This document shows, piece after piece, positions 38,890 through 52,630 of a stretch of DNA of 64,000 nucleotides. A program made the position numbers and the translations under genes. Position 1 is the first letter of the stretch; each line of letters starts with the position of its first letter. The stretch covers positions 34,184,934-34,248,933 of the forward strand of contig NC_019859.2 of assembly GCF_002234675.1 (NCBI RefSeq), written 5' to 3'. The stretch comes from Oryzias latipes (lineage: Eukaryota > Chordata > Actinopteri > Beloniformes > Adrianichthyidae). Under the pieces are notes generated by a model. The model made no database searches. It was not told the DNA's origin and worked only from the letters and a program-made list of their open reading frames with translations.

Positions 38890-40315
38890 TATTTCATTCA
38901 TTCTATCACGCAAACTATTAGTGCAAAGGTGTGCTAACACCTGTGCTCAGGTGAATGTTTATGTTCTTCTAAAATGGATGGAGGATTGTGTAAAGATGGA
39001 AGGAGAGTGCCCAGCCATCCCCACACCAAGACCCCCGCTGCAGCAGCTATGTATTTCATTCAATCACGCAAACTATTAGTGCAAAGGTGAGCTAACACCT
39101 GTGCTTAAGTGAGTGTTTATGTGTTTCTAAAATGGATGATGAAATGTAAAAGGACGGAGGGAGAGTGCCCAGCCATCCCCACACCAAGACCCCCGCCGCA
39201 GCAGCAGTGGCAGCTATAACCCCCCCAACGCCACACGGGAGCAGGCAGGGAACAACCGCCCCCCGGGCGACCAAATCCGCCGCCCAGGCCAGGGCCAGCA
39301 GGACTGCCGCAAGGCCCCCAGAGCCAGAGAGCAGGGAGGCATGGGGGAAAAGAGAGCGCTGCCCCAGCCCAACCAGGAGAGCAGCCCCCCCGCCGCGCCG
39401 TGAGAGCCTAACGCAGGGCCCCACCAGAGAAAGGCGCCCACAGCCCCAGACGAGCACCCCATTACCACCCAGGAGTTCCGGGCAAACCCCCGCCCCAACC
39501 CCAGGTATGAGCCAGGACCCCCCAAGGGAGACCCGCTCCGCACTCCAGGCAGCCACCCACCCAGCCCACGGTTGGTCCAGGGAGGAGCAAGGCAGGGGCC
39601 CGCCGCCCCCGCCCAGGAGGGGGGCACCCTGGGGAAAAAGGGCGCCCACAAGGGGTGTTGTAAACATGGCCCGACCAGGCTCGGCCACAGTTGGAAATTT
39701 GGTGGGGCCCAGCGCTCAGGGGCAAGTACCATAACCCACCCCCCAGGGACACGAACACCCCCGCCTCAGGTGTAATGTTAACCCCCCCCCCCGCACGGAG
39801 AGAGCACCGCCGGGCCCAGGAAACCGGCTCCCAAGGGACACGGCCGCTGTTGCCAAGGGGCCCCATACCCCATACCAGGGAAGGGGTAGGGGACAGATGG
39901 TCTTAGGTCCCACCTTCCTTGCAAAATGTGTGTGCGTGTGTTTGAGAGGGTGTGCATGTGTGTGTGTTTATGTTGGGATGTATATATTGAGGGGGGAGGG
40001 GTGTCTGTACTAAGGGGTGTGCAGTTAAAATTGGTGGGTAGGGCACTGAGGGGACATCTCCTGATTACTCACAGTGATGTCCCCTCAGCCTCCCCACCAA
40101 AGGGCCCTAAATGTCTAAGGTGCGGTTAAAATTGGCGGGTAGGGTGCCAGGAGGACATCTGCTGCTTGCTGGCAGTGATGTCCAAGCACCCCCCCTACCA
40201 AGGGCCCTACATGTCTAAGGTGCAAATAAAACCGAAAGAGGGGGGGCCCACTCCATACGGCAACCATAGGAGGGGGCCACTGCCAAGTAGCCCCCCCCCC
40301 CCCCCCCCCCCCCGA
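38890..40315. repeat. GC-rich block built of local repeats
   Basis: A unit starting ATTTCATTCA and containing CACGCAAACTATTAGTGCAA, then GAGAGTGCCCAGCCATCCCC, occurs twice in tandem (38,893-39,048 and 39,052-39,195). Bases 39,190-39,900 are C-rich on this strand, and then a second tandem pair of about 105-110 bp follows (GCAGTTAAAATTGGTGGGTAGG near 40,020; GCGGTTAAAATTGGCGGGTAGG near 40,122). It ends in a run of 23 C. The long frames on both strands are a by-product of the composition. It looks like a repeat of the genome, not a gene. Confidence 0.6.
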
Positions 40316-40886: not shown

Positions 40887-40892
40887 CAGACT
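40887..40892. repeat. Target-site duplication CAGACT, left
   Basis: CAGACT directly precedes the inverted repeat. The same six bases follow the right end at 52,625-52,630. Confidence 0.88.
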
Positions 40893-41039
40893 TATGGGGC
40901 GCCGAATGTAAAAATTAACCTCATGAAAATTTTGTGTCACTTTTACCACATTTAGACATTTCTTTCCATTTATGCTGCATTTATATCACATTTTGTCTAT
41001 ATTTATCACCAATAAAAAAACAATCTGTGACATGAGGAT

Positions 41040-41815
41040 ATGTACTTTTAGAGGTTAAAATTAAATCTAAATATTAATAATAAATAATAAATATTAATGT
41101 ATATGTAAATAATAAATGTAAATGTTAAATCGAAACACATACCTAAATCCCAAACGTAAATATAAATGCTAAGTGTATATGTTATATCTAAATGTAAACC
41201 TAAATGTTAAATGTAAATGTTAAATATAAATATAAATATAAATGTAAATGTTAAAAATAAATGTTAAATATATATCTAAATGTTACATTTAAATGTAAAT
41301 GTGAAATGTAAATGTTATATCTAAATATAAATATTAAATCAAAGACTAAATAGAAGTATAAATGTTAAATGTGATTATTAAATGTAAACCTAAATATTAA
41401 ATGCAAATGAAAATCTAAATGTTAAATGCTAAATTTAAATGTATATCTAAATGTTAAATCTAAATGGTAAATCTAAATCTAAGTCTAAATCTAAATATTA
41501 AATGTAAATGTTAACTCTAAATGTAAATGTTAAATACAAATTTTGTATCTAAATATAAATGTTAAATCTAAATCTAAATATAAATATAAATGTTAAATGT
41601 AAATGTTAAATGTAAATGCTAATATTAAAAGTAAATGTAGATCCAAATGTTAAATGTTAAATGTAAATGTAAATGTTAAATATAAATGTAAATGTTAAAT
41701 GTAAATGTAAATCTAAATGTTCCGCCTAAATGTTAAATATAAATGTAAATGTTAAATGTAAATGTAAATCTAAATGTTCCGCCTAAATGTTAAATATAAA
41801 TGTTGACTTTAAATG
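41040..41815 (+). repeat. Degenerate TAAATG/TAAATC hexamer array in the left inverted repeat
   Basis: About 780 bp consist of variants of TAAATG, TTAAATG and TAAATCT words on this strand, with almost no G-C run until two longer words GTTCCGCCTAAATG. A 60-bp unit is repeated at about 41,690-41,800. The mirror image is at about 51,715-52,490. Confidence 0.9.
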
Positions 41816-41825
41816 TTTGGGAAAT

Positions 41826-41893
41826 ATGCTAATGAGGCCACGCCCCTCACCGAATAGAGCGGTCCTTGTTCAGACGAAAGTTGAACCGTAATC
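41826..41893 (+). promoter_or_regulatory. Presumed promoter and leader in the left inverted repeat
   Basis: Between the hexamer array and the ATG at 41,894 lies a short GC-richer stretch. It has an octamer-type word ATGCTAAT (41,826-41,833) and a GC/CACC-box CCACGCCCC (41,838-41,846), about 50-70 bp before the start codon. The right repeat carries the same sites in mirror image at 51,684-51,691 and 51,671-51,679. That it is a promoter is inferred from position and words only. Confidence 0.5.
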
Positions 41894-44800
41894 ATGGCAA
41901 ACTCTTTGAGACCTGAGGATATTGAAAGGGCCGTTGTTTCAGGAGTGCGAGCTGCATTGCAAGGTGTCCTGGCACCTACACCTGCTGCTGCAAATCTGGT
42001 AAGTGGAAAAGTTAAATAAAATAAGATAAAATAGTTCTATAATACTATTATGTGGAAACGGATTTTTAGCTAGCTAAACAGCTAGTCTTTCCAAGCTAGT
42101 CTTAATTTTTTTTTAGCTAACAAATGGCTAACGTTATCAAGGCATCTTTTGACATTACAGTGTAATAATATAATGCTATTTTGTAATTTCCTTGACACAT
42201 AATGATGAAAGATATCTCTGAGTAGGCCTGCTATGTATGTCTGTGGTATTTTTATGCCACTTTACATCACTGCAACTCTAAATGAAAAAAAGAACATTGG
42301 CGGGGGGGGGGGGGGGGGGGGGGTCTTTTTATTTATTGCTTGTCTTCTTTCTCATTACAGATCTTTCTTATTTGCTAAAATCTGCTACAATCACTTATTT
42401 TCAATGTAAACTTTCTCTGTTACATGCTCCTACTCTACAGGTTAACACATCATCACCATCCACAAGTTCTGCCGCTTCACACAGACCGGTAAGAACATCA
42501 TCAGTTGTTTTCTTCCATTGAGTACAGTGATTACATTTTTTACAACTGTTGTTTTTTATTTTTATAGTTTAGTGTTTAACTGATTTTTAAAATGTAACAA
42601 AACATCCATATGATTGTTCTTCTACCACCGCCCACCTCAGGTCAACACTCTGCCGCCACCCATAGCATCCACAAGTTCAGCCACATCTGCAGGGGCTGGC
42701 ACATCCCAGAGATTGGTAAGAACTGAATGACTTATTTGCTTTTAATGAGTAGAATTACCATCAACTTTGTTGTGAAAGTGTACCTTTTAAGATGTTTTTT
42801 TATTTGTTCGCTGAATAGATTATTTTTTGTTACCGAATATATATTCCTGTTTATATGAGTTCTGTAAGTTTATATCAGAGATGGGCAAACTTTTCAACTC
42901 GTGGGCCATAGATGGTGTGGAGTGTTTTGGGAATCTGTATCATAATAGAAAGAAATAACTTAGAATATGGACGAAAACATGCTTTAACCTTGATTAAAAC
43001 TTTATATCTTTAAAACAGGTTTTATTTCAAAGCTTTGGCTTTTGTTCTCATGTTTGTGCAAATTGCACCCAAGGGTGGATGTCCGTCAGAGAAAAAGGCA
43101 AAATTAGAGAAATTATGATGATAAAAAAAAAAGACTTTCAGACTTGGAAAACATGCGCAAATGTCTGAAAACAACATCTTCCAACACCACATGAATGCCC
43201 AATAACGTTCTGCTCCTACAAAAAGATCAATGAATTAATATGGGTAGATACCAGGGCAAATAAAACAGTAAGGATAATTAGTATAAGTAATTACAATTTG
43301 GCAGGCTTGATTAATTGTTTTTAGGGATGCATATGGCCACCGTGCCTAAGTTTGCCCACCACTGGTTTATACCTTAGTAATGACTGCTGCTGACCCATTT
43401 GGGCAGCCGTGGTGCAGCGGTAGGACGGTCGACCCATGATCATAAGATTAAAGGTTAGATTCTCGCCCATTTGTCGAAGTGTCCTCGGGCAAGACGCTGA
43501 ACCCCACCTTGCCTCTGGTGGGAGGTTGGCGCCAGTGTTCGGCAGTGGAGCCACCACCAGTGCGTGAATGTGTGTGTGCATGGGTGAATGGAACTGTGAC
43601 TGTAAAGTGCTTTAGGCCTTCGAAAGAGGGTAGAAAGCGCTATATAAGTATACGCCATTTTCCATTAACTTTGATCTAGTTTTGGTAATTTTTAAGAATA
43701 AATCTTGTGTCCTCTCTTCTTAACAGGTTCCTTTTCCATCATATTTTCAATCAAGAAGAGGTCGATCAGGATATCAGCAAAGAAAAAACGTGAAAACGTT
43801 TACAAAAGACGTTGTATGTTTGCCATTTTCTCCAAGGGAATCAGTTTTCGTCATACCTAGAGGAGAAAACAGAAGTCGCTTGGCTCAAGCTGGTCTAATT
43901 GGAAAAATTTCCTTTACCACCGAGTGGTCTGAAGATCAGCTCAGAGAAGAAATTTCTGCTATCTTCAGAGGATCATTTGGCATCTCCGAGCATGATGTTT
44001 TCCCTTTTCAGTACTTGAGCACAATAAAAGGGTGCAAAAAATTAATGAAGCCCAATGTCACACTCAACTTTCCCTGGGGGGGAAAGAAGTTTCTTCTGTT
44101 TGCTCAAATACCTGTCTTTACATTATGGCTGAAATGGAAATGCCAACACAGGTAAGCTTGATAGTGAAAGTACTGGTAAACCTTTTTCATGTAATATTAT
44201 TTGCATGCGATTTTTGTTAAAATTATTTAGATATGAACATAACTAAGCACAGCATCATCTTTACATGTGACACTTTTTATTGTTGTAAATTGTTTTTGCA
44301 ATCACAAATTAACTTTGAACATTTAGTCATGCTTGTTATGTCTAAATTACAATTTATATGCTTTTAAAATTGCTTTCTTACACAAAATTTCCACATCTTA
44401 TCATTCAGCACAGAGTTTTTGACACGGATGACAGTGACTTTGAAAGTCCAACTTTTCAGAGTAGAGGTGGGTAGTTTCAAGGTTAAGATTATCAACCTGT
44501 GTTTCCATCCAACCCCCATGTTACATCAGCAATCCCACACTACCTGATTGATTTTGATCAACGTATTGGTCATTTCCAGAGAGTCGTTTGCATCCTTTTT
44601 TTTTCCAACTATCATTTCATAATGTGTCTTCTGCTCAATCTGTTCCATTTAGATCTTGAGACATTGGAGCAATCTAATGTTGACGGTCCATATGAACCAA
44701 TGGAGGCAGATGCCACAAATCGAGAACATGAGACCGAACAAGGAGGCACTCGTTTCTCTGATTTCATGTATGTTTTATACTGGATTTGTTAGAAAAACCA

Positions 44801-47097
44801 GTTCATTTACATTTTTTTCGTCCAATTTAGCTTTTTCTTCTTCTTTTTGAATCTCTTTTCAAGACCACTTGATTTCGAAGAAGAGGAGGCAGTCGAGGAA
44901 GCCATCAGACGCAGTTTGGAAGAAGAAACTGTCCAGGTTCCACAAGAGTCGAGGTTTTAATTATTTCAGTATTACATTTAATTATTGACAATATTTTCAT
45001 TTTCCTGATCTTTGTAACGATGACATCTGCTGTTTTATCTTTTCAAGGTCTATTAAAACGTTGACAACAGAAGAAATAACTGGAATTGTAAAAGCTCACA
45101 GTGAAATGGTTGTTACAGAAGGATTTAGGTCAATCATTGTCAGCCGAAGAAATGTGTGGACATCTGCGATCCGACAATTCAGGCGACCAAGATTTGTTGA
45201 AAGCACCGATATGCTTTATGTAACATTTGCCAGTGATGAAAACACCACAGAAGATGCAGAAGATCTTGGAGGTCCCCGTCGAGAACTCTTTCGCTTGCTT
45301 GTTAAAGCAATTTTCCAAGAAAGTGGGGCATTTGAGGGTGAATTCTTTTTTATTTTTCATTAGTTAAATGAGAAATTTAAGTTAATAACAGACTGCATAG
45401 ATAATTTTTGTTTAATAAAATTAAGTTTGTTTAAAGCTGACATGAACATATTTTATTTGATCTGCAGAGTCCCCCAATGGCTTCATTCCAAGACTAAATG
45501 TTTCGCATGTCCAAAATCGAGTCTACCGCACTATTGGTCAGATGATGTCTACCATCATTGTCCAAGGTGGAGAATGTCCTGCTCTCCTTTCGTCTGTTGT
45601 CTTGGACTACCTGCTGACTGGGCGTATGTTCGACATCCGCGTTTCTCCAGAGGATGTTGCCGATGTGGAACTTAGAGACAGCCTCAAGACAGTATGTTTA
45701 TGAAAGTGGTTAAACTCTGTAATAATTTTATCATTCATTTTCTAACTATTTTTCTATGTAAAGTGTCAGGGAAGGTGTTGGCAATTAAAATACAAATTGA
45801 TGACATTTCATAAACACATATTTTCTCCTTCTGACATTTTAAGATTGATCAAGCAACAACTGATGATGATCTGCAACGAGCAATAGAATCCTGTGAGTCA
45901 TGGAGGTACCAAATTGAAGGTCTTCCAAACCCTGTTACCATGGACAACAAGGATGCATTTGTTAAAAATGCTATAATTTTCCATGTTCTACTACAACGAA
46001 AGAGCTGCTACGATCAGTTAGCTGAGGGGTTGGAATGTTATGAGGTAAGTCTAGGCTGACATTCATTAGTGTCTGGTTTGTAGGTAAAAGTTGATCAGAA
46101 ATGTATAAAAATAACTAGATGTTATGTTTTTACAGCTCTTACCACTTCTGAAAGAGAACCTTCCCCTTCGGGTTCTTTTAGAGATGCCCAAGGTTCGCAG
46201 TGATCTTACAGCAGATGTGGTTGCTACCCTTCTGAAGCCCAGCTACTCCGTTCTGGGAAGCAACAAACGACCAAAAGAAGAGCTGATGGTGGTTAAGTTC
46301 AGAGATTTCCTCAATAGTGTTCAAGGTAAAATAAATAAAGCAGACAAGCCATAATTTGCTCTAATTTGCACTAAGACCTAAAGTCTTATACATTTTTTTT
46401 TCTTTTAAATGCTGATTTTCAGTAAGCATTACATTTTAGCTACTGCTGGCATATTTAATTATCATTTTGGAAATTTTAATTTTTCTTTTTAGTATACAAA
46501 ATTACGAAGGTATGGAATTATATTCAATTCAATAAAAAAACATTTTTTATATGGTTCCAAATAAAGTGAATAATTTGTCTAAAAAATTTCAGGTAAGGGA
46601 AAATGTGGAGTTTAAAATATAAAAATTCATTAGCACATTTACCCGTCATATTGAAAATGTAAACTTTGTAGAAATTTTAGACAACCAGTTTTGCAGTATT
46701 AAAAGAACAGTTTATTGCAATGAAGAACAAGTGAATCTGAATATTGTTTTTTCTAATTTTTTTTTTCTAATAATATCTTACAATGACAGAAAGAGAAGTT
46801 GAGGAATGTCTTCATGGCAGAACCCTGACAGAAGCAGAGAAGACCTTTCTCAGAAATTTAAATCCTGGACATATTCTCGCCTTTGTGACTGGAAGTAGCA
46901 GAGTTCCAGCAGTTGGATTTCAACCAAGTCCAAAGTTAAGCTTTGTTCATAATGAAAACAAGTACCTTCCAGTCGCTCATACGTGCTCAAATGAGCTTGA
47001 AATCTTTGTAAATTCCAAAAATCTAGCTGACAATGATGAGTTTGAATATAACTTCCTAGTAGCGCTTATGAATGGAGCAAATTTTAGTGCAGTTTAA
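41894..47097 (+). CDS. Transposon-borne HECT-type E3 ubiquitin ligase (G2E3-like)
   Basis: Twelve coding exons: 41894-41998, 42441-42488, 42641-42715, 43727-44151, 44414-44466, 44653-44767, 44864-44953, 45048-45337, 45468-45691, 45844-46044, 46136-46325, 46790-47097. All introns are GT-AG and all phases match, giving 2,124 nt or about 707 aa. Residues 1-76 (exons 1-3) are Ser/Thr/Pro-rich and come from the inverted repeat. Exon 4 is the family's N-terminal region. Exon 7 has a ubiquitin-interacting motif, EEEEAVEEAIRRSLEEE (about 279-295). The HECT domain starts near DLGGPRRELFRLL (exon 8) and ends with LPVAHTCSNELEI; catalytic Cys is about residue 671 (codon 46984-46986), 36 residues from the C-terminus as usual. 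No stop or frameshift was seen. A polyadenylation word AATAAA overlaps the stop. It would join ubiquitin to unknown targets; substrate and role in transposition are unknown. Exon 4 has no early ATG, so the repeat-borne start is needed. Confidence 0.9.
42302..42323. repeat. Poly-G run (22 G) in intron 1 of the HECT gene
   Basis: The partner run in the right repeat is 14 C. This is the only length difference between the two repeats. Confidence 0.95.
42876..43364. mobile_element. Non-autonomous hAT element (489 bp) nested in intron 3
   Basis: Inverted ends CAGAGATGGGCAAACTT and AAGTTTGCCCACCACTG, with 8-bp flanks GTTTATAT (left) and GTTTATAC (right), one change apart. No coding sequence. It begins 43 bp inside the end of the left inverted repeat, so it interrupts the single-copy arm only. 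Confidence 0.87.
43401..43666 (+). mobile_element. tRNA-derived SINE, second fish family, copy 2, in intron 3
   Basis: The head GGGCAGCCGTGGTGCAGCGG is followed by CCTCGGGCAAGACGCTGAAC, GGTTGGCGCCAGTGTTCGG, GCGCTATATAAGTATACGCC and a CCATT end. It is better preserved than the copy at 12529-12772. Confidence 0.85.
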
Positions 47098-47917
47098 ATA
47101 AACATGAAAATATATTCCAGGGAAAAGGGTCCAGGTGAGTAAGAAGGGAAAATAAAGTGGAGAAGAGAAGAAATGTAGAAGAATGGATACGTTATTTGTA
47201 TTAATCCAAAACACCTCAGTGATGTTTTTCTGTTTTTTTTTTACTTCTGTATTAATAAATATAAAAAATTTGCCTTTGTATGGAGTTTTGCTATGTTTAA
47301 ATGTTATTAATAATTTTAGTTAATTCATAAAAGCAGGAAAATGTGCTACTTGTGTCTTTGTTGAGGATCTGTTTCTGCTGTTTGATGAGCAAATTGTATT
47401 TAATTAAACAAAAACAGGAAATGTTGAACGGTTTTCTTTTTTCTGTTTCCATGTAAAGCCACTCAAGACAACAGTTAAATATGAAAAGTTACAAAAGAGG
47501 AAAAATGGTAAAATATAGATTTGGATCTCTTTGTTCGGGAAACTTATATTTATTTATTTTCTATGGGAAGGAATTGGTATTGTCTGTAGAAAAGTATGCA
47601 TTTTCTGAACACCAGAGAGAGTACACCCATTATTTCATGTTGATCCATTTCAAATAATAGGTTATTTTTTGAAATGTCAATAGATGTTTGTTTAGCAGAG
47701 CAACATGGTTGTGTGTTGAAAGTGTTTGCATACGTTGTCTCACATGTAAAGCCTATTGGATGTTCATTCTTTATGGAAAAGGTTTCAATTACAAACTCAA
47801 ATGATGAAACATTAAACAAACAATTAAACTAGATGTTGTGTCATTGCTTTTAGAGTAGACCAAGTCCTTCTTTTCAGTATTTCCTCTAGTGCCCTGACTT
47901 GCTCTTACAATGAACTG
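47098..47917. other. 3' flank of the HECT gene inside the transposon
   Basis: AT-rich single-copy DNA with polyadenylation words (47,097-47,102 and near 47,253). The minus-strand frames at 47,550-47,977 have no support as a gene. Confidence 0.5.
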
Positions 47918-49392
<1,475 letters not shown>

Positions 49393-49681
49393 TGTTGTTA
49401 AAAAATGATACGTCTGTATAAGGAATTTTTGAAAACTCTGCAGGGAAATAAAAGACCAAATATTTGGTGATATTTTTTTAATCACAATATCAGTGAACTT
49501 GCATAGATGTCAAAAACATTCAACAGTGCTACCCAGTAGCTAGTTTATTATTTATAAATTCTTGCACTTTCTGATACAGTGTTTTTCCTTGGTTTCCATC
49601 ATTTTCTAGTGGGTTCACGTTTGCAGACAGTTCTTGCAAGTCTTGATCAGTAAGTGGTGTGAAGAGGTAATCTGAGCTTTG
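49393..49681. other. 3' flank of the integrase gene inside the transposon
   Basis: AT-rich DNA. On the minus strand an AATAAA word lies near 49,545, about 135 bp past the integrase stop codon. Confidence 0.5.
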
Positions 49682-51623
49682 TCATGATTCTGGGCTTCTC
49701 TCAGTTACCGAAGCAGAAGTTGCAGAATTCGGCATTGGAAAACAAGTGTTTTGGGTGAAAAGCTGAACAGGGGTTTTGTTTCCCTCAGAGGAGATGGAAT
49801 GACTGTTGAATGCTGCCTGAAATTCCTCAAGTGTGCAGTTGATTCTGGGAATGTATACATAATGGAGGCAAAATAAATCAGTCGGGTTGTCTACATCCAG
49901 CATGTTCAGGGATTCTAGCTCATAGAAAATGGGCGCATACACGTTTCGGCAGTTACAGTTCAAATCACGATTAAATCGCTCAATACGTTGATTATGAACA
50001 GAGCTCCCTGTCAACACAGAACTTACTCCTTTGTGCACTCTCATGTCCTCCCAAATCAAAACATTTTCCCCTCCATGATCAGTTCTTATGTGCATAGGCC
50101 ATCCAAACTTGTTCACACCTTTCCTAAATAGATCCAGGACAGTTGAAGCACGATTGTTGTTAGAACAATGCAGAAAAGTCAAAAATCTGCTGTACCCATC
50201 AATTGCGGTATGAATGACTAATTTCCATCTTATGAGCTTATGGTTGCCGTCAATGTGCCATATATAGTTTGGAAAGGGGACAGAGTATGTTCTTCTTTGC
50301 ACTGCTGATGTTCTCCTAGACTGTGCTCCAGCAAAATCAACCCTTTGCACTGAGTCTCTGAGACGATGTCTTTGAACTATGATGTTCCTGGCACGCAAAT
50401 GTCCATTGAGCATAACCTCTCCAACATGAGGGTGATTTGATTTTATTGCACGAATTACTTCATCCAGTTCCTGATCGGAAATGTCACTGAATTTTTGGTG
50501 TTTTATGCCATACTCTCTCATAAGCTTGTACAACGTTGGTCTTGATATTTCCAAGATTGATGCCGTTTCTGAGAGTGTTGTCCCCAAGAATATTAATCTT
50601 TCAATGTCCTCTTTGGAAATTAGGGTTGTTCCAACCTAACACCATAGGTGAAAAAAGGGACAAAAACAGACAAATTGAATTACTTCTACATATAACAAAA
50701 AATAATCTATTCAGCGAACAAATAAAAAAACATCTTAAAAGGTACACTTTCACAACAAAGTTGATGGTAATTCTACTCATTAAAAGCAAATAAGTCATTC
50801 AGTTCTTACCAATCTCTGGGATGTGCCAGCCCCTGCAGATGTGGCTGAACTTGTGGATGCTATGGGTGGCGGCAGAGTGTTGACCTGAGGTGGGCGGTGG
50901 TAAAAGAACAATCATATGGATGTTTTGTTACATTTTAAAAATCAGTTAAACACTAAACTATAAAAATAAAAAACAACAGTTGTAAAAAATGTAATCACTG
51001 TACTCAATGGAAGAAAACAACTGATGATGTTCTTACCGGTCTGTGTGAAGCGGCAGAACTTGTGGATGGTGATGATGTGTTAACCTGTAGAGTAGGAGCA
51101 TGTAACAGAGAAAGTTTACATTGAAAATAAGTGATTGTAGCAGATTTTAGCAAATAAGAAAGATCTGTAATGAGAAAGAAGACAAGCAATAAATAAAAAG
51201 ACCCCCCCCCCCCCCGCCAATGTTCTTTTTTTCATTTAGAGTTGCAGTGATGTAAAGTGGCATAAAAATACCACAGACATACATAGCAGGCCTACTCAGA
51301 GATATCTTTCATCATTATGTGTCAAGGAAATTACAAAATAGCATTATATTATTACACTGTAATGTCAAAAGATGCCTTGATAACGTTAGCCATTTGTTAG
51401 CTAAAAAAAAATTAAGACTAGCTTGGAAAGACTAGCTGTTTAGCTAGCTAAAAATCCGTTTCCACATAATAGTATTATAGAACTATTTTATCTTATTTTA
51501 TTTAACTTTTCCACTTACCAGATTTGCAGCAGCAGGTGTAGGTGCCAGGACACCTTGCAATGCAGCTCGCACTCCTGAAACAACGGCCCTTTCAATATCC
51601 TCAGGTCTCAAAGAGTTTGCCAT
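49682..51623 (-). CDS. DDE integrase/transposase with N-terminal helix-turn-helix
   Basis: Four coding exons on the minus strand: 51519-51623, 51037-51084, 50810-50884 (all in the right inverted repeat) and 49682-50635. All junctions are GT-AG and phase 0; 1,182 nt, about 393 aa. The first 76 residues are identical to those of the HECT protein. The last exon opens VGTTLISKEDIERLI, followed by a helix-turn-helix (LSETASILEISRPTLYKLMR). The integrase core follows, with D in WHIDGNHK (about residue 205), D in IRTDHGGENV (about 262) and E in HNQRIERFNRDLN (about 295), 32 residues between the last two. No stop or frameshift interrupts it. The first ATG in the last exon lies inside the helix-turn-helix, so the start must come from the repeat exons. 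It should cut or join the element's ends. The core is of the retroviral/IS481 kind. Confidence 0.88.
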
Positions 51624-51670
51624 GATTAAGGTTCAACTTTCGTCTGAACAAGGACCGCTCTATTCGGTGA

Positions 51671-51691
51671 GGGGCGTGGCCTCATTAGCAT
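51671..51691 (-). promoter_or_regulatory. Presumed promoter words in the right inverted repeat
   Basis: Mirror image of the left repeat: GGGGCGTGG (51,671-51,679) and ATTAGCAT (51,684-51,691), upstream of the minus-strand ATG at 51,623. It would drive the integrase gene. Confidence 0.5.
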
Positions 51692-51714
51692 ATTTCCCAA
51701 ACATTTAAAGTCAA

Positions 51715-52490
51715 CATTTATATTTAACATTTAGGCGGAACATTTAGATTTACATTTACATTTAACATTTACATTTATATTTAACATTTAGGCGGAACAT
51801 TTAGATTTACATTTACATTTAACATTTACATTTATATTTAACATTTACATTTACATTTAACATTTAACATTTGGATCTACATTTACTTTTAATATTAGCA
51901 TTTACATTTAACATTTACATTTAACATTTATATTTATATTTAGATTTAGATTTAACATTTATATTTAGATACAAAATTTGTATTTAACATTTACATTTAG
52001 AGTTAACATTTACATTTAAAATTTAGATTTAGACTTAGATTTAGATTTACCATTTAGATTTAACATTTAGATATACATTTAAATTTAGCATTTAACATTT
52101 AGATTTTCATTTGCATTTAATATTTAGGTTTACATTTAATAATCACATTTAACATTTATACTTCTATTTAGTCTTTGATTTAATATTTATATTTAGATAT
52201 AACATTTACATTTCACATTTACATTTAAATGTAACATTTAGATATATATTTAACATTTATTTTTAACATTTACATTTATATTTATATTTATATTTAACAT
52301 TTACATTTAACATTTAGGTTTACATTTAGATATAACATATACACTTAGCATTTATATTTACGTTTGGGATTTAGGTATGTGTTTCGATTTAACATTTACA
52401 TTTATTATTTACATATACATTAATATTTATTATTTATTATTAATATTTAGATTTAATTTTAAACTCTAAAAGTACATATCCTCATGTCAC
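51715..52490 (-). repeat. Degenerate hexamer array in the right inverted repeat
   Basis: Mirror of 41,040-41,815: CATTTA/GATTTA words on this strand. Confidence 0.9.
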
Positions 52491-52624
52491 AGATTGTTTT
52501 TTTATTGGTGATAAATATAGACAAAATGTGATATAAATGCAGCATAAATGGAAAGAAATGTCTAAATGTGGTAAAAGTGACACAAAATTTTCATGAGGTT
52601 AATTTTTACATTCGGCGCCCCATA

Positions 52625-52630
52625 CAGACT
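52625..52630. repeat. Target-site duplication CAGACT, right
   Basis: Same six bases as at 40,887-40,892. Confidence 0.88.

Follow-up and report, generated by a model that had tools for sequence, protein, structure and literature searches.

Why should two genes for unrelated enzymes, facing each other from opposite ends of one 11.7-kb element in the genome of the medaka Oryzias latipes, begin with the same three coding exons? We examined this question in a 64,000-nucleotide (nt) stretch of medaka DNA, hereafter the window, starting from an earlier note drawn up from its letters alone. One gene ends in a HECT domain. The other encodes an integrase. Very probably, the element is a two-gene transposon of IS3EU type, whose long terminal inverted repeats (here also called arms) hold the upstream region and exons 1–3 of both genes and are kept alike. 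The features that define this arrangement are listed below by their position in the window.

40887–40892: left target-site duplication, CAGACT
40893–52624: apparent IS3EU-type transposon, 11.7 kb
40893–42832, plus strand: left terminal inverted repeat, 1940 nt; outer end TATGGGGCGCC, inner edge in intron 3
41838–41893, plus strand (mirrored at 51624–51679): stretch from minisatellite to ATG, the shared upstream region and presumed promoter or 5′ untranslated region
41894–41998, plus strand: leader exon 1, left, 35 codons
42441–42488, plus strand: leader exon 2, left, 16 codons
42641–42715, plus strand: leader exon 3, left, 25 codons
43727–44151, plus strand: HECT exon 4, frame shifted at a G-run near 44076 in the window copy
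44409–47097, plus strand: HECT exons 5–12, one open frame when joined
49682–50635, minus strand: integrase body exon, 317 residues, with helix-turn-helix and DDE core (WHIDG, RTDHGG, NQRIERF)
50693–52624, minus strand: right terminal inverted repeat, 1932 nt
50810–50884, minus strand: leader exon 3, right
51037–51084, minus strand: leader exon 2, right
51519–51623, minus strand: leader exon 1, right
52625–52630: right target-site duplication, CAGACT

The inverted repeats contain the first three exons of both genes

The two repeats align over approximately 1930 nt. Four substitutions (41054, 41497, 41888 and 42622) and a G-run of unequal length distinguish them, and all of these differences are outside the exons. 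Identity over 1.9 kb excludes chance as an explanation. Exons 1–3 are the same on the left and on the right at 228/228 nt, and give the same 76-residue translation. All leader exons have GT/AG borders and all end in phase 0. The inner edge of the repeat (42832 on the left, 50693 on the right) lies 117 nt beyond the shared exon 3 donor, inside intron 3. Between the arms, from left to right, are the HECT gene on the plus strand, a broken Tc1-type insert and the integrase exon on the minus strand.

Splice sites were scored with a simple matrix and ranked among the local GT or AG sites. The three leader donors fall within the top 2.2% of local GT sites and the acceptors of exons 2 and 3 within the top 6.1% of AG sites. 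The acceptor of HECT exon 4 is in the top 0.6% of local AG sites and that of the integrase exon in the top 9.4%. Two sites within the HECT gene are weak: the donor after 44953 (38th percentile) and the acceptor at 46790 (78th percentile).

To judge from the reading frames, neither body exon could start translation alone. The first in-frame ATG is codon 39 in the integrase exon, within the helix-turn-helix, and codon 107 in HECT exon 4. In-frame stops are found 1 and 2 codons upstream of these two exons, respectively. The leader itself is predicted to form a helix at residues 7–24, followed by a disordered linker rich in Ser, Thr and Pro. An NCBI gene model from O. latipes, LOC111946834 (393 amino acids), corresponds to our leader–integrase splice model over its full length at 99%. 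In a protein search the two had the same length and four differences, none of them in the leader. The longest contig for LOC111946834 is as long as C22 of the medaka genome.

Much of this had been claimed by the earlier note. It placed identical, phase 0 exons of 35, 16 and 25 codons in both repeats, with coordinates that proved right. It set HECT exon 4 (43727) after the leader on the left and the integrase exon (50635) after it on the right, the repeat edge in intron 3 past the shared donor, and no usable early ATG in either body. All of this agrees with our analysis. Its further claim, that both proteins start with the same 76 residues, is supported by LOC111946834 and by leaders on both bodies in other species. 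The check that it proposed in other copies also came out in its favour, as described in the next section. Beyond the earlier note, the window copy has a frameshift in HECT exon 4 and an integrase stop that falls 51 codons early.

The repeat edge is the same in all medaka copies

A DNA search of the medaka genome with HECT exon 4 gave 13 matches. Seven copies have both bodies: C1 (the window), C9, C22b (C22, 1.26 Mb), C22a (C22, 28.37 Mb), C6, C23 and C11a (C11, 24.88 Mb). Both arms are present in 6/7, and the stretch fetched for C22a held no left arm. In 13/13 arms of the seven copies the repeat ends at the same base of intron 3, after TTTTGTTA; either of two unique intron sequences comes next. 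The copies are approximately 93–99% alike, hence we count this constant edge as one observation. The leader exons, some damaged, lie within the repeat in 6/6 further copies (five with two arms and one with a right arm only).

The ends of the element are also conserved. In the window, the termini are TATGG..CCATA, the outer end of each repeat is TATGGGGCGCC and CAGACT flanks the element on each side. TATGG..CCATA was found at both ends of 6/6 two-ended copies. Perfect 6-bp duplications flank five of the six (CAGACT, GGAAAC, GTTATT, GGAGTG and AGGGGT).

A hairpin artefact of assembly was considered separately and ruled out. The bodies differ, the arms differ at four sites and 5/6 two-ended copies have 6-bp duplications.

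Some copies are incomplete or irregular. In the stretch examined of an eighth copy (C2, 5.52 Mb), the integrase body is preceded by exons 2 and 3 and by the end of exon 1. The left arm of an older half copy (C11, 27.40 Mb) is approximately 11% different, and the stretch fetched held no right part. C6 (C6:12720711–12733866) has good ends and no target duplication, which may point to recombination between two insertions. For C22a (C22:28369758), homology starts close to the inner repeat edge, 25 nt into the unique sequence of intron 3; perhaps a whole arm was lost.

Both genes bear the leader in other animals

Leaders of other species were read from predicted proteins. The leaders of integrase and HECT proteins from one species agree in 57/58 residues in Merluccius polli (P0006 and P0122), 34/35 in Epinephelus coioides (P0007 and P0139) and 52/53 in the octocoral Dendronephthya gigantea (P0089 and P0153). 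For Xyrichtys novacula (P0029 and P0138), 16/20 aligned residues agree, and the HECT model begins within the leader. Each of these four pairs was taken as one contig because the longest contigs were equally long. The leaders of a Sander integrase and a Perca HECT protein agree in 58/61 residues. By reading, we found the leader, whole or in part, on 17/29 HECT proteins. Such a leader also begins 13 of the 120 integrases listed, as selected by eye with a pattern as a check and the rest left unsorted.

We then asked how the leaders are related. The tree comprised 27 leaders, with the shared leader of the window entered once for each gene. The body label changes nine times on this tree, compared with a mean of 9.2 when labels are shuffled, and 284/500 shuffles do as well. 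Hence, the tree is not sorted by body and the leaders appear to follow the element.

It is unlikely, in our view, that both genes use the leader but that inverted repeats exist only in the medaka family, the leaders elsewhere being paralogous exons or products of gene prediction. Such leaders are known from predicted proteins alone. Moreover, leaders of one type are alike across genera: a Merluccius integrase and a Gadus HECT protein agree in 56/58 residues, and a Sander integrase and a Carassius HECT protein in 55/61. This likeness means that agreement within a species is, alone, no proof of homogenisation. However, integrase leaders of the window type show only 46–71% agreement between genera, against 34/35 to 57/58 between the two genes of one species. 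Terminal inverted repeats would account for that difference. The octocoral proteins, in addition, part abruptly after 53 shared residues.

Pairing of the two genes was also examined across the medaka genome, which we searched with a hake integrase (103 matches) and a goldfish HECT protein (67 matches). Grouping by hand gave 82 loci for the integrase and 26 for HECT; in this step, 21 integrase matches were set aside as further fragments of loci already listed, including one at a distance of 6.6 kb. An integrase match lies within 15 kb at 20/26 HECT loci, with the nearest pair convergent in 20/20, and at the other six there is none. Seven of these convergent pairs are the family of the window and 13 are loci of divergent members. 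From the other side, a HECT match was counted within 15 kb of 22/82 integrase loci; these include two additional loci, with distances of 8.7 and 7.6 kb, of which one is not convergent. The other 60 have none, which says little with such distant queries.

Two side observations concern these relatives. At the 13 loci of divergent members, the convergent HECT and integrase matches are 2–10 kb apart. P0126, a leader–HECT protein of Merluccius polli annotated as zinc finger MYM-type protein 1, has an inserted stretch absent from its relatives, which may reflect nested insertion or fusion in the gene model.

Mutations appear to pass between the arms of a copy

The earlier note had proposed that recombination between the repeats keeps the two leaders identical. 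We compared the inner 995 nt of the arms, with the copies assigned to three lineages: (C1, C9, C22a, C22b), (C6, C23) and (C11a). Differences between the arms of one copy number 2/959 in C1, 2/963 in C9, 3/959 in C22b, 2/962 in C6, 7/940 in C23 and 10/953 in C11a. Arms of different lineages differ at 15–31 sites. No column of the alignment separates all left arms from all right arms. Private mutations are found in both arms of the same copy. Briefly, C11a has four such substitutions, three of them (42467, 42690 and 42704) in exons, C23 has one, and in C9 both arms have, within exon 2, an insertion of 4 nt that is private to this copy.

Likeness within a copy exceeds likeness between lineages, a pattern not open to a repeat pair that had diverged ever since it arose. 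Hence, we conclude that mutations pass between the arms of a copy. The means may be gene conversion; repair after excision and recombination among copies are also candidates. As to the proposal of the earlier note, the exchange stands, with recombination as one candidate for its means.

Could the arms be alike merely through youth, with no exchange and with the leader serving as a shared promoter at most? The four substitutions in approximately 1930 aligned nt would suit a young insertion. So would the distribution of private substitutions, which are confined to one arm at 18 sites and present in both at 5. A further point against strict exchange is that, among close copies, some arms are closest to an arm of another copy: C23_R has C6_R as its closest match (1/961) rather than its partner C23_L (7/940), and the arm closest to C22b_R is C9_R. 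However, without exchange, left arms of different lineages should be closer to each other than the left and right arms of one copy. The reverse was seen (2–10 compared with 15–31 differences). The lack of any site that separates left from right and the insertion in both arms of C9 also speak against youth, which we regard as very unlikely to be the explanation.

The two bodies encode an integrase and a HECT protein

The three catalytic-type motifs WHIDG, RTDHGG and NQRIERF are present in the window integrase. Pfam matches were to rva_4 (6.5e-70), rve (7.3e-10) and HTH_17 (4.6e-4, under its curated cut-off), and no zinc (HHCC) family was among the eight Pfam families listed. A structure model of P0001, with a mean predicted local distance difference test score (pLDDT) of 80.9, resolves the integrase core and the helix-turn-helix with high confidence. 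It also contains the leader helix at 7–24 (mean pLDDT 76 for residues 11–20) and the disordered linker. The core fold matches retroviral intasomes (best 5ejk_H, E 7.8e-8), as expected for this class of enzyme. Pfam and the element ends, where we looked, gave no signs of a virus or a Polinton. Among viral contigs, 10 pattern matches to the hake integrase included no true relative.

The early stop of the integrase (49682–49684) is common to C1, C9, C22b and C22a. C6 and C23 read through and C11a is frameshifted. Of the copies with the early stop, C1, C9 and C22b each lie within their own 6-bp duplications. Hence, the short enzyme may be functional, or else these copies were mobilised in trans.

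The exons of the second gene downstream of exon 4 are as follows.

44409–44466, 44653–44767, 44864–44953 and 45048–45337, plus strand: HECT exons 5–8
45468–45691, 45844–46044, 46136–46325 and 46790–47097, plus strand: HECT exons 9–12

Exon 12 carries a HECT domain with a catalytic-type Cys (HTC), and the joined exons match PF00632 at 5.1e-17. The motif is HTC or NTC in 16/16 rows that reach this site in an alignment of 21 rows, the octocoral included. By its domain and catalytic-type cysteine, the second gene is predicted to encode a HECT E3 ligase. Exon 7 contains a motif that we take to be UIM-like. The NCBI medaka model of this protein, P0121, is 100% identical from exon 5 onward and begins in intron 4, probably because the gene caller found a way round the frameshift in exon 4. 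In Betta, the leader of the HECT protein also has a predicted helix, at 10–26, in a model that is otherwise poor (mean pLDDT 49.3).

For HECT exons 5–12, the ratio of non-synonymous to synonymous substitution (dN/dS) between the window copy and other lineages is 0.32 (C6), 0.22 (C23) and 0.23 (C11a), with 14–18 changes in each comparison. Such low values indicate that the HECT gene was probably constrained while the lineages parted. The frame of exon 4 is open in two copies (C6 and C23), interrupted by an in-frame stop in two more (C9 and C22a) and shifted in the remaining three (C1, C11a and C22b). The result for C22b applies to the cut used; a protein search finds most of the exon open. C6 and C22a each have one new stop within exons 5–12.

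A model in which the transposon ends are also coding

Our model is built on the repeats, exons and frames, on the common edge, on the mutations found in both arms and on the leader shared by proteins of other animals. The element would be a cut-and-paste DNA transposon with two genes, each long terminal inverted repeat holding the upstream region of a gene together with its coding exons 1–3. Transcripts would start in each repeat and run inward. The exon 3 donor lies inside the repeat and would be joined to the first acceptor beyond it, in the unique middle. The left end would then yield a leader–HECT ligase and the right end a leader–integrase, with a common N-terminus of 76 residues. Recombination or repair between the arms would keep the two leaders alike. 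Because the repeat edge is in an intron and the leader exons are phase 0, the position of the edge could shift without harm to the reading frame. An inversion of the unique middle would keep both genes intact, and might be tolerated. The common helix may, as a guess, bring the two proteins together, or bring each to one partner.

Several observations weigh against this model, in addition to the cross-genus likeness and the one-arm substitutions described above. The window integrase ends 51 codons short of its relatives, and HECT exon 4 is out of frame in the same copy at the G-run near 44076. Among the HECT proteins, 12/29 have no leader: nine start within the body, P0121 starts in an intron, and P0130 and P0149 show different N-termini in the portion examined. 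Upstream of a divergent medaka integrase family (loci L036 and L046), no leader of this kind could be made out. The leader frame is open in both arms in only 3/6 two-armed copies (C1, C11a and C22b). C23 has a stop in its left leader, C6 an insertion on the left and a 1-nt insertion on the right, and C9 a frameshift in both; the right leader of C22a is open but followed by a GC donor after exon 3. In the comparison of C1 with C6, substitutions number 0/228 in leader exons and 20/674 in introns. However, a test for constraint of exon over intron was significant in only 1/6 pairs. For the HECT gene, dN/dS is 0.86 against C9, 0.57 against C22a and 0.52 against the old copy. Against C22b, there are no synonymous and five non-synonymous changes, for which the ratio is undefined.

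That the leader is real on one gene only, the repeats having grown inward by recombination so that the second copy of exons 1–3 is unused and the other body starts elsewhere, is hardly credible: transposon repeats can lengthen by recombination and P0121 lacks a leader, but the positions of the first ATGs and upstream stops, the leaders on both bodies in Merluccius, Epinephelus, Dendronephthya and, in part, Xyrichtys, and a leader tree not sorted by body all argue otherwise.

The model of a two-gene transposon with coding ends can be taken further. IS3EU-type transposons of animals as far apart as octocorals and fishes may form a whole clade in which transposase and HECT ligase are both made from one terminal-repeat leader. 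The repeats would bind the transposase, act as promoters, supply coding 5′ exons and, as a pair, repair each other. The middle would be indifferent to inversion, and the common helix would join both proteins in a complex. We judge this wider version about evenly balanced between right and wrong.

Terminal repeats are usually read as transposase binding sites, at most with a promoter. Here, they also appear to be protein-coding, and the likeness maintained between the DNA ends would give two unrelated enzymes a common N-terminus. This would tie protein evolution to the recognition of ends, predict concerted evolution of the two genes and offer a system in which to test exchange between inverted repeats. 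A number of fish and coral gene models named 'G2/M phase-specific E3 ligase-like' and 'integrase core domain' may thereby be explained as halves of one element. Masking of repeats ahead of gene prediction would lose the first exons of both genes.

Other features of the element and its surroundings

Two further features lie within the element.

41024–41830: minisatellite, AT-rich, in the outer left repeat, with its mirror image at approximately 51687–52493 in the right repeat
47918–49396, plus strand: broken Tc1/mariner-type (Tc1/Sleeping-Beauty-type) insert between the two genes, outside the shared-leader arrangement

The minisatellite is TAAATGTTAAATGTAAATC-like and occupies approximately 0.8 kb of each outer arm; the length of the outer arm varies somewhat among copies. 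The Tc1-type insert is at the same site in 7/7 copies compared (approximately 90–99% alike). Hence, the element spread with the insert as a passenger. Outside the element, at 38890–39205, is a tandem pair of 158 nt (87% alike) adjoining a GC-rich stretch. The latter has long open frames on both strands, and the one frame tested (207 amino acids) had no Pfam match.

Comparison with known systems

IS3EU elements are described as having 6-bp duplications and ends of the form TAYGG..CCRTA, and in fungal members the genes for a transposase and an alpha-kinase are oppositely oriented (PMC12730594, PMC10045372). The medaka element resembles them in its 6-bp duplications (5/6 two-ended copies) and TATGG..CCATA ends (6/6). 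It also resembles them in a DDE transposase without an HHCC zinc motif and in a second gene of opposite orientation. Unlike the second gene of the fungal members described there, that of medaka is a predicted HECT ligase, not an alpha-kinase. Another difference is the length of the repeats, which in medaka are 1.9 kb and hold coding exons. On sequence grounds, we conclude that the element fits the IS3EU superfamily. In a search that did not extend to Repbase or subscription journals, we found no paper naming IS3EU and HECT together, and none on a HECT-type ubiquitin ligase in a teleost DNA transposon.

Other transposons also pair two genes. MuDR of maize has them in convergent order, with promoters in repeats of approximately 0.2 kb. 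To our knowledge, these short repeats share a 5′ untranslated region at most and no coding exon, in contrast to the medaka element. The MuDR genes, mudrA and mudrB, each lie by a near-identical terminal repeat, and part of TIRA corresponds to the mudrA transcript (PMC8224964). ProtoRAG and RAG-like transposons have two convergent genes in one transposon (PMC7204232). They differ from the medaka element in their transposase family, and the opening of that abstract mentions no shared leader.

The earlier note knew this arrangement from no described family. This holds for transposons within the literature searched, where two unrelated enzymes sharing several coding exons through transposon ends are not described. 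Among viruses, however, there is a close formal parallel in herpes simplex virus 1 (HSV-1). As with US1 and US12 of HSV-1 (ICP22 and ICP47), the first exon of two genes lies in inverted repeats, by sequence in medaka and by protein in its relatives. In HSV-1 the promoters of both genes are in the repeats; in medaka, the place of exon 1 suggests the same. Unlike HSV-1, the medaka element is a transposon and not a virus. Moreover, the shared exon of HSV-1 is largely non-coding, whereas the two genes of the medaka element share 228 coding nt.

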